Source: Clostridia bacterium (GTDB lineage: Bacteria > Bacillota > Clostridia > Oscillospirales > CAG-272). From it: a stretch of DNA of 61,768 bases. Each line of letters opens with the position of its first letter. The stretch's first letter is position 1. Shown here piece after piece: positions 46,802-61,768 of this stretch. The notes under the pieces were generated by a model. It did not search any database, was not told the origin of the DNA, and was given only the letters and a program-made list of their open reading frames with translations. The translations under genes and the position numbers were made by a program. The stretch spans positions 1 to 61,768 of the forward strand of contig JAFTKJ010000019.1 in assembly GCA_017453305.1 (NCBI GenBank), in the 5' to 3' direction.

Positions 46802-46972
46802 TCATATGCGTGATACTCTTAACGGAGTATCACGCATCGAGATAAATCCCTAACGGGATTTTCGATATGTTGCTAGCGCAACTCGATATGCCTACGGCTC
46901 GATATGTTTGCTCCGCAAACGAGGGATTTATCTCATATCGAATTGGTGCGAAGCGACAATAAGTGAGAGCCT
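46802..46972. repeat. Short-palindrome array 1 (linker CGATATG)
   Basis: At least five different short palindromes in a row: GATACTC/GAGTATC, AAATCCC/GGGATTT, TTGCTAGCGCAA, GCCTACGGC and TTTGCTCCGCAAA, joined by CGATATG or close variants. An outer pair GAGATAAATCCC / GGGATTTATCTC encloses the block, so RNA from it would fold as a multi-branched structure. No coding region. Confidence 0.75.
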
Positions 46973-47011
46973 TTCATCGTTCCTTAACCAAAGGACATTG
47001 CCATAAAAGTC

Positions 47012-47107
47012 GGCAATTCGAGGAGCTCGAGCCGCGTGTGCTCACACGATGAATGAAGGACAGGTACGTGTACCTGCCCTTCATTCATGGTGGAAACAGG
47101 GAGACTC
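47012..47107 (-). repeat. Truncated tRNA-Val 3' end plus terminator, copy 1
   Basis: Similar in order to 47187-47281: GGCAATTCG, GGAGCTCGAGCCGCGTGTG, a hairpin (GAATGAAGG / CCTTCATTC), then the 20 bases that form the 3' end of tRNA-Val (47088-47107). The remainder of the tRNA is missing. It looks like the residue of a second tRNA gene with its own terminator. Confidence 0.75.
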
Positions 47108-47225
47108 AGGAACTCAAACGCGCGGTATCATGCGCTGCATTTTGTTTATTAGCAAAGCCGCGCGTTATGGCGTAATTGCCGCTTGCGGCAATTCGCGGAG
47201 CTCGAGCCGCGTGTGTTCGAACGAT

Positions 47226-47260
47226 AAAACAAGAGCAGGCTACATGCCTGCTCTTGTTTT
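47226..47260 (-). terminator. Terminator of tRNA-Val
   Basis: Perfect 15-bp stem (AAAACAAGAGCAGGC / GCCTGCTCTTGTTTT, loop 5 nt) just after the tRNA 3' end, with TTGTTTTATC on the minus strand. Confidence 0.85.
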
Positions 47261-47261
47261 A

Positions 47262-47338
47262 TGGTGGAAACAGGGAGACTCGAACTCTCGACCTCACGGA
47301 TGTGAACCGTGCGCTCTAACCAACTGAGCTATGCTTCC
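47262..47338 (-). tRNA. tRNA-Val (anticodon CAC)
   Basis: 77 nt including encoded CCA. Acceptor GGAAGCA / TGTTTCC, D arm with AGTTGGTTAGA, anticodon stem CACGG / CCGTG with loop TTCACAT (anticodon CAC, codon GUG), T loop TTCGAGT. Confidence 0.95.
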
Positions 47339-47354
47339 ATTCAGTTCTTCGCAT

Positions 47355-47383
47355 ATTATATCACATTTCTTGTAAAATTGCAA
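47355..47383 (-). promoter_or_regulatory. Sigma-A promoter of tRNA-Val
   Basis: TTGCAA, 17-nt spacer, TATAAT on the minus strand, ending 17 nt before the tRNA. Confidence 0.8.
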
Positions 47384-47486
47384 TACTTTTTTCAAAAAAA
47401 TCAAAAAAGTTTCCGCACTGTAATACTGCAAAAAACAACACCACAAGGTGTGTCTTCCATAAAGCAGGTTTTACCTACCGAAATAC

Positions 47487-47522
47487 AAAAGGAGTACGGA
47501 CAGTTTTGTTCGTACTCCTTTT
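47487..47522. terminator. Orphan terminator hairpin
   Basis: 12-bp stem (AAAAGGAGTACG / CGTACTCCTTTT), T-rich both sides. Not attached to an evident gene. Confidence 0.6.
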
Positions 47523-47593
47523 TACACGCCTTGTCTGCAAGGTATAGTGTGTTACACCTTTCAGGTGTACTGTCGGGTGGTAAGACAGCCGAG

Positions 47594-47703
47594 GTGGCTC
47601 GCGCAAGCGAGACGGAGGGATTGTTAAAAATAAAATTATACCGAAAAACAATCCCTCAGTCACCTTCGGCGACAGCTCCCTTTGCACAAGGGAGCCTTTG
47701 GAT
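47594..47703. repeat. MITE-like palindromic element
   Basis: Non-coding. It contains GGAGGGATTGTT ... AACAATCCCTC inverted arms, GTCACCTTCGGCGACAGC, and GCTCCCTTTGCACAAGGGAGC. It belongs to the same GGCTCCC / CGAAG-loop family as 49039-49178 and the core of repeats A and B. The surrounding 47384-47777 holds no gene I can support. Confidence 0.7.
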
Positions 47704-47777
47704 TGTGCGCCCCGAAAGTCTGTCTATTTTTCCTGATAAGTGCTGACTTAATTAAAGACACCTTGCTTCACGATAAT

Positions 47778-59754: not shown

Positions 59755-59789
59755 TACTCGTCCTCAAAAAAACATCCGAAAAATTTCAT

Positions 59790-59978
59790 TTCCGACTTCG
59801 TCGGAGTGATATGATCGCGTACGCGATCGTGATATTGAAACCTTACGGCTTCAGTGATATTTTATTCGCATACAAAACTTGTGAAGCAAATATCACTCGG
59901 CGATAGACGAATACCACTGCGAAGCAATATCTCTCGCCAGAGGCGAATAAAACTGCCCAACTTCCTTATGGGAAGTTG
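59790..59978. repeat. Short-palindrome array 3 (linker TGATAT)
   Basis: Non-coding palindromes CCGACTTCGTCGG, GATCGCGTACGCGATC and AAGCCGTAAGG-type, CTCGCCAGAGGCGA and CCCAACTTCC / GGAAGTTGGG, separated by GTGATAT or AATATC. About 40 bp at 59937-59976 are the inverted copy of 51855-51893. The remaining 100 bp to the next gene are AT-rich without feature. Confidence 0.72.
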
Positions 59979-60075
59979 GGCTAAAACTTGGATTTTTTGC
60001 CAAAGCGCAGTAAAAAGGTGTGTAAATACAGGTAAGAACAGCAAAAAGTACACCAAGTCAAAATTGTTTAAAGCA

Positions 60076-60597
60076 TCAAAAAAAGTGAGGTTTGTCCTGT
60101 GGAATAAAAGGCTGCACATCTGTTTTACTCATGCAAAACGGAATTACACATTCCAAAAAATGAGCGTAATCATCCGCTATGATATTTATCTTAAAGGCGT
60201 TTTTTGACAGTTTCTTTTTATATTGATTTTTATTCTTCTGGGGTTCTTTTGCAAAATAAATTATGTACGAATTTGAATAAACAGCTCCGTCTTCGCTCCG
60301 CCCGTCATATGACAATCCATAATCTTGAATTTCGTTCCACTCCAAATGATGTTTACCAAACATCGAGTTATATGAAATGCCGTCATCATCAATAACGACC
60401 CTTTTGCTGTATCTGTAGAAAGATATGAGCGCGCCGCAAAAAACTACGCCAAGCCATAGGCATATAAAAGCGGATACGGCAAAGTCACCGATGGAGCCCT
60501 CAAATTCCATAAGCACGGGAATGAAAAAGTGTAATCCGACACATTCCATAAATGCCGCACCTACTCCAATTTTTAGAAAGAGGCTGGTTGACTTCAA
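60076..60597 (-). CDS. Two-helix membrane protein with PH-like domain, unusual start
   Basis: At least 173 residues: two hydrophobic helices (about 7-30 and 38-60), then a strand-rich domain beginning KRVVIDDDGISYNSMFGKH, typical of small bacterial PH-like membrane proteins. Similar in layout to the protein at 5897. No ATG or GTG lies in a good place: the promoter (60653) and AGGAAG (60637-60642) are 6 nt before GTC ATA ATT AAA in the correct frame, so translation may begin at AUA or AUU near 60625, or at the TTG at 60597 which lacks a ribosome site. It may alternatively be a recently damaged gene. Confidence 0.6.
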   Translation of the reverse strand: MKSTSLFLKIGVGAAFMECVGLHFFIPVLMEFEGSIGDFAVSAFICLWLGVVFCGALISFYRYSKRVVIDDDGISYNSMFGKHHLEWNEIQDYGLSYDGRSEDGAVYSNSYIIYFAKEPQKNKNQYKKKLSKNAFKINIIADDYAHFLECVIPFCMSKTDVQPFIPQDKPHFF

Positions 60598-60652
60598 TTC
60601 AAATCCGTTATTTGTAGATTTAATTATGACAATTCACTTCCTTTCTGCAATT

Positions 60653-60681
60653 ATTATAACAGAAAATTGCTTATACGTCAA
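60653..60681 (-). promoter_or_regulatory. Sigma-A promoter of gene at 60076
   Basis: TTGACG, 17-nt spacer, TATAAT on the minus strand. Confidence 0.75.
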
Positions 60682-60860
60682 ATGATGCATCGCTTGCGGC
60701 GATATGATGTTTTTCGCTTCGCTCAAAATGATGTTGCTCCCGTCGGTCGCAATGATGCGATGTTTGCTCCAAAATGTGGCAAAGCCACGCATCATTAGGC
60801 GTAGCCAGCATCATTGGGCGAAGCCCAACATCATTTGCCGAAGGCAAACATCATTCAAAA
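60682..60860. repeat. Short-palindrome array 4 (linker CATCATT)
   Basis: Non-coding. Palindromes GGCGTAGCC, GGGCGAAGCCC and TGCCGAAGGCA follow each other, each with CATCATT after it; the left half carries the inverse ATGATG with GCTTGCGGC, TCGCTTCGCT and GTGGCAAAGCCAC. The orientation of the linker switches near 60780. Confidence 0.75.
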
Positions 60861-60927
60861 AAGCGAATAAAAGGTGGCTGAATAGAGGTAAAAACGAACA
60901 AAAGGTGGCTAATAATGGAAATAAGAA

Positions 60928-61116
60928 TTATTTCTTTTTGTTCTTTATCTGTTTGACAAGGACAACACCAAACAAGATCAACGATATTAAGAAAAGAGGG
61001 CCTGCACAAACATAGAGTGCAAATGGAATCTCTATCAATGAATTCAAGAAATTTATAATGCTGCCAATCAACAAACAGGTGGAGGCTATGAGTTGTAGAA
61101 TATTTACTTTTTTCAT
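60928..61116 (-). CDS. Two-helix small membrane protein, unknown
   Basis: A 62-residue protein consisting of two hydrophobic helices (about 6-26 and 32-54) and a basic tail KQIKNKKK. GGAGAAC lies 7 nt upstream. Its ATG overlaps the stop codon of the four-helix-bundle gene (ATGA), so the pair is co-translated. No family recognised. Confidence 0.65.
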   Translation of the reverse strand: MKKVNILQLIASTCLLIGSIINFLNSLIEIPFALYVCAGPLFLISLILFGVVLVKQIKNKKK

Positions 61117-61460
61117 TTTGTGTTCTCCTTCAATGTTTTACAACTTGCAATCAGCATTCGTCTAATGCGACCACAAATATTTCTGTGGTTTTTATACGTT
61201 TCTTCATCAATACTGTTTGTGTTGAATAACAATTGCAACCAACCTTCCGTTTCGCTACATTCTTTTAGAGCTATTTCAAATTTTGAAAGCATATCCGCTT
61301 TACTCTGTCCGTAATTAGCTTCACGGATGTTTGCATAAACGCTGCTTGAGCTTTTGCGTATTTGGAAAAGAGTGTTGAAAGGGGCTTTTATAGTTTGACA
61401 AAGTAATTCTATATCGGTCGCAAGCTGCTCCGAATAAATCAGTAAATAATTTTTAGCCAT
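61113..61460 (-). CDS. Four-helix bundle protein (23S rRNA intervening-sequence-protein family)
   Basis: A 115-residue all-helical protein of the S23/bIVP four-helix-bundle family, recognised from IREANYGQSKADMLSKFEIALKE-like spacing (IREANYGQ, FEIALKECSETEGWL). Relatives are encoded in 23S rRNA intervening sequences and as Avd accessory proteins of diversity-generating retroelements. No reverse transcriptase, rRNA gene or template repeat is visible in this window, so the role here is open. Its own promoter lies upstream. Confidence 0.82.
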   Translation of the reverse strand: MAKNYLLIYSEQLATDIELLCQTIKAPFNTLFQIRKSSSSVYANIREANYGQSKADMLSKFEIALKECSETEGWLQLLFNTNSIDEETYKNHRNICGRIRRMLIASCKTLKENTK

Positions 61461-61481
61461 ATTGTCACTTTTTTCAATGGT

Positions 61482-61510
61482 ATTATATCATATTTTACAA
61501 AGAAAGTCAA
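61482..61510 (-). promoter_or_regulatory. Sigma-A promoter of four-helix-bundle gene
   Basis: TTGACT, 17-nt spacer, TATAAT on the minus strand. Confidence 0.8.
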
Positions 61511-61534
61511 GAGTTTTTCGCATTGTCGCATTCC

Positions 61535-61768
61535 AATCACGCCAAAGGCGTGTATATCATCAATGCGAAGCATTGTATATCATCCGCAACTTGTTGCGGT
61601 AGGTTTTTAGTGAAATATTCGCCTTGGGGCGAATGTGAAATAATTCACTGCGTGAATTGTGAAATATCTCCCGTCGCCTACGGCTTTGGTCGATGTGAAA
61701 TGAAATTTGCCCACATTCGCGTCAGCGAATATTTCACATTTGCGGAGCAAATATTTCACAGCGAAGCT
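61535..61768. repeat. Short-palindrome array 5 (linkers TATATCATC, then GTGAAATA)
   Basis: Non-coding to the window edge. Palindromes CACGCCAAAGGCGTG, AATGCGAAGCATT and CCGCAACTTGTTGCGG are joined by TATATCATC. Then ATTCGCCTTGGGGCGAAT, AATTCACTGCGTGAATT, GCCTACGGC, ATTCGCGTCAGCGAAT and TTTGCGGAGCAAA are joined by GTGAAATA or ATTTCACA. Continues beyond the window. Confidence 0.78.

Follow-up and report, generated by a model that had tools for sequence, protein, structure and literature searches.

Five intergenic blocks in a 61,768-nt stretch of DNA from Clostridia bacterium (assembly GCA_017453305.1, contig JAFTKJ010000019.1; the whole stretch is hereafter called the window) are probably copies of a palindrome-built, non-coding DNA element that resembles a miniature inverted-repeat transposable element (MITE) and sits at terminators, and of which the Rfam family RF01706, "Gut-1 RNA", is one half. 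The window is contig C19 of a genome (G000) of 2.63 Mb that is 80% complete. As the initial annotation had described, all five blocks consist of unlike hairpins between which short AT-rich linkers of 6-9 nt recur. In the window and 20 further stretches of the same genome (402,580 bases together), a strict linker-agnostic scan returned 5 arrays with at least three units against 0 in three shuffles; it misses drifted arrays, and among the window blocks it recovered only that at 61610. Scanning for hairpin density gave 14 dense regions, some of which are not linker arrays, against 0 in one shuffle. A chance origin is thus ruled out by the shuffle controls of both scans. The motif GTGATATN{9,24}GTGATAT gave 27 matches at 9 loci of G000, and its reversed control pattern gave 0.

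The arrays are made of two mirror-image halves. At the centre of an array the linker turns into its own reverse complement, typically from four GTGATAT-type to four ATATCAC-type copies. One linker had initially been assigned to each block, except that in the last it was seen to change; the recurring linker stood, but it becomes its reverse complement halfway and drifts, and block 61535 turned out to be two arrays. Both linker orientations were present in 57 of 136 linker clusters from the fetched loci and one orientation only in the other 79, this set being not deduplicated, including some unrelated tandem repeats and having its sub-totals summed by hand. GTGATAT came first and ATATCAC second in 52 of the 57 two-orientation clusters, and 5 were arranged otherwise. 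The same mirrored design was found with TCGATAT/ATATCGA, with GTGAAGTT/AACTTCAC and, in the 61610 array of the window, with GTGAAAT/ATTTCAC. The window blocks belong to several related linker families, and the searches made revealed no described MITE from which all of them derive, an origin that the initial annotation had considered. The usual layout comprises four linkers with three hairpins, a centre, four inverted linkers with three hairpins, and then a strong end hairpin. Many copies also have a left module bearing a terminator-like hairpin of its own, and the left end, GTGATGTYCTTATCGGAG, is similar to one half of the end hairpin on the right (both by eye).

Family A, with the linker GTGATAT, was collected as 53 distinct copies carrying the centre motif, of which 41 could be parsed into slots and 12 could not. 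On the left, four linkers alternate with hairpins 1, 2 and 3 and are followed by TNTATTCGCC, a loop and the central hairpin; on the right, three inverted linkers precede hairpins 4, 5 and 6 in turn, and the strong end hairpin comes last. An alignment (A2) was made of 39 parsed copies, leaving out L063 and L139, which carry inserted hairpins. Its linkers are nearly invariant and its stems change freely, which bears out the description of the blocks as constant linkers with variable palindromes. Stem cells were paired in 93.7% of cases against 74.5% in shuffles, part of the remaining ~6% stemming from misalignment of hairpin 3, and both-sided changes were seen in 29 of 35 stem pairs (213 cells changed on both sides, 11 on one). 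The long-range pair TNTATTCGCC:GGCGAATANA was 98.5% paired, with one clearly covarying column (C-G 17, U-A 12, A-U 9), and competes with hairpin 6. A Christmas-tree pairing of left with right linkers was attractive because the two are complementary; within family A, however, paired cells equalled the shuffle mean (86.7%), and we keep this fold as a mere possibility. Units are gained or lost singly, a point that the initial annotation had proposed to check: the copies at 51845 of the window and on contig C22 hold one hairpin more than a related copy, the second on contig C79 (L054). In three copies (L123, a minus-strand copy, L126 and L139) a hairpin lies within the loop of an array hairpin, which suggests growth via insertion of palindrome into palindrome. 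A tandem run at L120 (2538-2930) holds six GTGATAT-containing matches in one contig.

Judged by model matches, half an array is Rfam RF01706. The window matches scored 44.5, 39.9, 32.4, 29.5, 26.0 and 23.2 bits, all under the gathering score of 50 bits; they appear at permissive thresholds, a default Rfam search gave none, and block 46802 had no match up to E = 1. Of 20 loci tested, 9 held half-arrays that reached at least 50 bits, 10 in all. Like Gut-1, the half-array has four GUGAAAU-type linkers and three hairpins, an arrangement found in the window at 61608-61706 with four GTGAAAT, family A having GTGATAT instead. The Rfam model differs in covering one half on one strand, whereas the element has two halves in inverted repeat, comprises several linker families, bears an end hairpin and is placed at terminators. 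The 59790 array of the window matches RF01706 on one strand in its first half and on the other strand in its second, and so do the arrays of 11 of 20 loci selected with the Gut-1 model (mostly with the GTGAAAT linker). Searches with Infernal's stricter filters found RF01706 in 102 of 146 genomes of the window's family, which consists of gut bacteria, with 27 matches in the window's own genome, and in 2 of 249 genomes drawn across the phylum, one of them the window's own. Rfam gives its type as "Gene; sRNA" and treats it as a candidate RNA without assigned function. The discovery paper places Gut-1 in the human gut only and in environmental sequences only, and marks it "Y" (certainly) in the first table column after the name, read here as the answer to "is it an RNA" (PMC2864571). 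That paper alone was found when one library was searched for Gut-1 RNA or RF01706. The initial annotation knew of no named element with this design; since half an array is already RF01706, the element is not wholly unnamed, and as a whole it was not found described in a search of one library for palindrome arrays and for elements within terminator loops, judged by titles and abstract openings. Gut-1 matches lie at most ~210 nt from the start of six G000 contigs (C27, C28, C36, C37, C71 and C93). Since these contigs and the window (at 61768) begin or end in or beside arrays, arrays probably break assemblies, so that copies are undercounted.

The hairpin loops change strand between the halves. 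Loops of the types C(GNA)G and C(GNNA)G, which have exceptional stability in DNA, were on the minus strand of 39 of the 68 left units with 3-4-nt loops and on the plus strand of 2 (71 of 94 distinct left units were parsed), and in right units (46 of 67 parsed) on the plus strand in 29 of 46 and on the other strand in none. The 20 Gut-1-selected loci, an independent set, repeat this flip: the first half had 50 TNC-type, 1 GNA-type and 6 other loops, and the second half, which showed at least two further linkers in 16 of the 20, had 24 GNA-type, 0 TNC-type and 14 others. RNA tetraloops follow the GNRA rule. In the GNNA loops counted from lists a pyrimidine stood at the third position in 22/46, 13/36 and 9/16 cases (three sets); the rule is therefore not followed, and RNA-type GNRA loops were dismissed. 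G-U occupied 12 of 1356 array stem cells (0.9%) and A-C 20 of 1356, against G-U in 51 of 655 pairs (7.8%) in 31 transfer RNAs (tRNAs) predicted from the fetched loci. Block 59785-59985 folds far better than shuffles both as RNA (z -6.3) and as DNA (z -6.2). Because the halves match Gut-1 on opposite strands, the loops flip strand and G-U is scarce, the full array anatomy, as far as sequence can tell, argues against plain RNA; the strand flip and the scarcity of G-U likewise disfavour the RNA-level barrier role considered initially.

Copies share ~360-380 nt with a sharp right edge. Outside this unit each copy has flanks that bear no relation to those of other copies, but the two flanks of one copy are mutually complementary and carry an A-tract and a T-tract (for example, arms AAAAGGAGTACGA and TCGTACTCCTTTT around L118). 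As 11 of the 53 family A copies have no usable right end, pairing of the flanks was assessed in 42. They paired at the unit edges in 23, whereas 5000 permutations of the right flanks averaged 2.7 and never exceeded 11, the cut-offs of this test having been chosen after an earlier look at the flanks. A cut-off-free pairing score averaged 9.90 for the best pairing against 7.09 when permuted (permuted maximum 8.02), a value reached by 0 of 10,000 permutations. Copies of 90-93% identity sit between unrelated arms. Exact arms enclose a complete family B element (L247; 14 nt), a family F element split over two contigs (21 nt) and a solitary end hairpin at C12:23515 (7 nt). Among the 20 Gut-1-selected loci, a strong palindrome ends 0-1 nt before the array in 17 (12 of 263 random positions) and a T-run precedes the array in 12 (8 of 263); a tRNA or transfer-messenger RNA gene (Rfam) is present in 8. 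Similar copies accordingly occupy the loops of unrelated intrinsic terminators or start directly where a terminator ends. Convergent genes surround 9 of 19 arm-flanked copies according to a crude open reading frame caller. A copy on C79 lies between a convergent NUBPL/Mrp-type P-loop NTPase gene and a U32 peptidase gene (Pfam). One of 28 other loci of the NUBPL/Mrp-type gene in the genus, some of which are cut by contig ends, has the same convergent U32 gene (68% identity) with a plain terminator between (L220); in L216 and L217 the U32 homologue is on the opposite side of the NUBPL/Mrp-type gene.

The features of the window are as follows.

46802..46972, minus strand: family B array, linker TCGATAT, a truncated copy with TCGATAT x3 and modified outer linkers CGAGAT and ATCTCAT
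Within 46806-46837: outer hairpin of block 46802, GCGTGATACTC-TTAACG-GAGTATCACGC, the end hairpin common to other families
46794..46800: 7-nt left arm (AAGGAAC), preceded by an A-tract, of a putative terminator-like hairpin around block 46802; pairs with 46979-46985 (by eye)
46979..46985: right arm GTTCCTT of the same hairpin (by eye)
51845..52073, minus strand: family A array in reverse orientation, with drifted linkers; end hairpin 51854-51882
59790..59981, plus strand: family A array that has lost its first linker; three GTGATAT, the centre and four inverted linkers, with the end hairpin at 59955-59981
59782..59865, plus strand: first half of the 59790 array, RF01706 match, 29.5 bits, under the gathering score
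59885..59955, minus strand: second half of the 59790 array, RF01706 match, 39.9 bits, E 6e-5, under the gathering score
60682..60860, no strand given: family C array, ATGATG x4 then CATCAT x4 (linker count), hairpins between
61535..61600, no strand given: remnant array, linker TATATCATC x2, right-half orientation
61610..61768, plus strand: array with GTGAAAT x4 and then ATTTCAC x2, truncated at 61768 by the end of the contig
60653..60681, minus strand: promoter-like site TTGACG-17-TATAAT facing away from the family C array, 11/12 consensus matches
61482..61510, minus strand: promoter-like site TTGACT-17-TATAAT facing away, 24 nt from the 61535 array

Block 46802 has one inverted linker, ATATCGA at 46935-46941, read directly in the sequence and absent from the linker count because it overlaps; a fuller family B copy at G000:C22:1790-2000 (L020) has both halves, including the inverted one. 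Linker drift is strongest in block 51845, where the linkers read GTTTTAT, GTTCTAT, GTGTTTCT and GTGATAT, then ATACCAC, ATAACAC, ATATAAC and ATATAAC, and where only 51881-51971 matches Gut-1 (E 0.97). The inverted linkers of block 59790 are ATATCAC, ATACCAC, ATATCTC and ATAAAAC. The family C array matches Gut-1 at 60803-60875 (minus strand, 32.4 bits), and the first hexamer of the promoter-like site beside it begins at 60681, adjoining the first base of block 60682. Block 61535 consists of the right part of one array and a second array beginning at 61610, which matches Gut-1 at 61608-61706 (plus strand, 44.5 bits) and 61688-61761 (minus strand, 26.0 bits). The promoter scan, made by consensus matching only, gave 23 sites against 14.6 in shuffles.

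If the blocks are such an element, copies would spread by insertion at terminator hairpins, and the mover would probably be an enzyme acting in trans that recognises DNA hairpins or the end hairpin. Units would be maintained as DNA hairpins, in single strands or cruciforms; recognition would fall to the linker sequence, the stem being required only as a stem. The element's own terminator-like hairpin would substitute for the broken terminator, and insertion into terminators would spare genes. Short, non-coding, dispersed copies were observed directly; insertion we infer from the flanks and one empty site. Tentatively, and with less confidence than we place in the element itself, we suggest a class of selfish DNA that is made of palindromes and lands in palindromes, in which case Gut-1 would be a DNA element and not an RNA. 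A unit of tag and hairpin would then fold as single-stranded DNA, each strand having its stable hairpins in its own 3' half, and the linker sequence would set which copies the machinery recognises, so that linkers would change in concert while stems drift.

Several results weigh against a mobile element. Target-site duplications of at least 4 nt were found in 5 of 14 copies, against 14.8% of swapped pairs. No mobilising enzyme was found in a search limited to the Y1 and IS110 families. Flanking arms were not detected by the cut-off rule in 19 of 42 copies. The sole empty site (L220) has a terminator stem of different sequence, and is therefore support, not proof; a second attempt at C12:23515, in which 11 loci of 30 matching genomes were viewed by eye in addition to the genome's own, gave none that was usable. 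Covariation between left and right linkers was sought within family A and none was found. Among distinct units read on the GNNA strand, G-T (17) exceeded A-C (5), a mild strand preference suggesting that, in each unit, one of the strands matters; the same comparison was about even in A2 (19 against 13, summed). The IS110 family was rejected as mobiliser, with a single match in the window's genome and no association across genomes.

That Gut-1 is a genuine non-coding RNA, and each array a structured transcript in which folding of the RNA preserves the stems, appears unlikely. The Rfam entry, the "Y" in the table of the discovery paper as read here, the strong stem covariation and the fold of the RNA strand at 59785-59985 all speak for it, although the DNA folds equally well. 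With halves that match the model on opposite strands, one transcript would therefore carry one half per orientation; G-U pairs are far rarer than in tRNAs, the GNNA loops often have a third-position pyrimidine, and 12 of the 20 arrays start after a T-run. The T-runs also speak for an account in which the host selects a DNA boundary between transcription units, such as a supercoiling sink or a polymerase block, with copying secondary. Some arrays do lie between a terminator and a promoter, as block 60682 adjoins a promoter-like site. We nevertheless consider this account unlikely too, given that the arrays are patchy within one genus (27, 13, 11 and 1 linker-pair matches in four genomes) and that the one other genome with the C79 copy's convergent gene pair has no array there.

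It seems quite unlikely that the arrays form a system of the repetitive extragenic palindromic (REP) or bacterial interspersed mosaic element (BIME) type, with a 7-nt tag on palindromes moved by a REP-associated tyrosine transposase (RAYT, family Y1). Their unpaired tag and hairpin in opposite orientations are like REP dimers (PMC3733652). Arrays are also more numerous in 32 genomes with divergent Y1 proteins, the Y1 matches having been sorted by hand into classical and divergent (Mann-Whitney p 0.005; p 0.11 for counts of at least 6), and the Y1 gene of L260 is directly followed by a GGGGTATGG..GCATTT..AAATGCG module that also occurs inside elements. Against this, the linkers GTGATAT, TCGATAT, ATGATG, GTGAAAT and GTGAAGTT contain neither a GTAG nor a CGTC tag, and no Y1 match was found in G000 (80% complete) or in other array-bearing genomes, among them G014 and G090, although weak Y1 proteins could escape. 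RAYT is disfavoured as mobiliser, since its association with arrays across genomes is weak and no array was seen by eye in the flanks of eight Y1 genes, viewed over at most 420 nt upstream and 520 nt downstream. Least of all do we favour replication errors, which is to say template switching at hairpins that perfects palindromes and copies units without mobility or function. Such errors fit the both-sided changes with few intermediates, the single extra units and the hairpin-in-hairpin insertions (L123, L126, L139). Yet the linkers, which this process would not protect, are the most conserved part, and long copies are alike within unrelated terminators. The slippage proposed in the initial annotation may create or copy single units, but it gives no account of ~360-nt copies of up to 93% identity at such sites.

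A terminator-associated DNA element of this kind has partial counterparts among known systems. MITEs are short, non-coding, dispersed and have related left and right ends. The element is likewise short, non-coding and dispersed, and its two ends look related by eye; it differs in its weak duplications and in a site that is a terminator loop or end, and a search of the Y1 and IS110 families revealed no autonomous parent transposon. Neisserial intergenic mosaic elements (dRS3 arrays) alternate constant short repeats with variable pieces; the alternation is the same here, with variable pieces that are ~9-20-nt hairpins and a layout that is an inverted repeat. The "spacers" of a clustered regularly interspaced short palindromic repeat (CRISPR) array would here be self-complementary hairpins, some of them common to several copies. 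REP and BIME sequences are likewise small palindromes, each bearing an unpaired tag, that frequently lie in opposite orientations and mostly downstream of genes (PMC3733652). They are tagged with GTAG or CGTC, whereas the present arrays have array-shared 7-nt tags, unlike stems and a fixed 4+4 layout, with no RAYT shown. IS1397, IS621 and ISKpn1 also use a palindrome as insertion target; they insert into REP palindromes and encode a transposase (PMC1525189), the element described here being non-coding.

Other palindromic sequences occur in these genomes. A second dispersed palindromic module (CCTCTCCC..GGGAGAGG, CGGCGTAGCCG, CCCGACTCCGTCGGG) has copies roughly 80-90% identical in the window (44151-44350 and 52099-52298) and at L017 (14160-14319) and L021 (1555-1753), and adjoins the family A arrays of window 51845 and of C22. 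A module GGGTATGGGC..GCCC..GCATTTGT..ACAAATGCGAAACTGGC lies in either orientation inside elements (by eye): it was seen in the left module of L035, L151 and L152, in L115, L146 and L202, at about 52250-52310 of the window and, in L260, downstream of the Y1 gene. Its promoter-side copies look by eye like a gene's 5' leader. REP-like palindromes of the GTAGGGGCGA type are also present (L249), and divergent Y1 proteins (L256-L263) carry variable inserts that by eye resemble translated REP-like palindromes.

Gut-1, a catalogued candidate RNA that its discovery paper, as read here, rates as certain, appears to be one half of a larger DNA element that flips strand between its halves and is associated with terminators, and this element may be mobile. 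A DNA palindrome would be expected to give covariation that takes few G-U steps and extends over mirror-image halves; if the element is real, covariation alone would be no proof of RNA. A non-coding element that settles in terminator hairpins would then add a type of target to those of palindrome-seeking elements.

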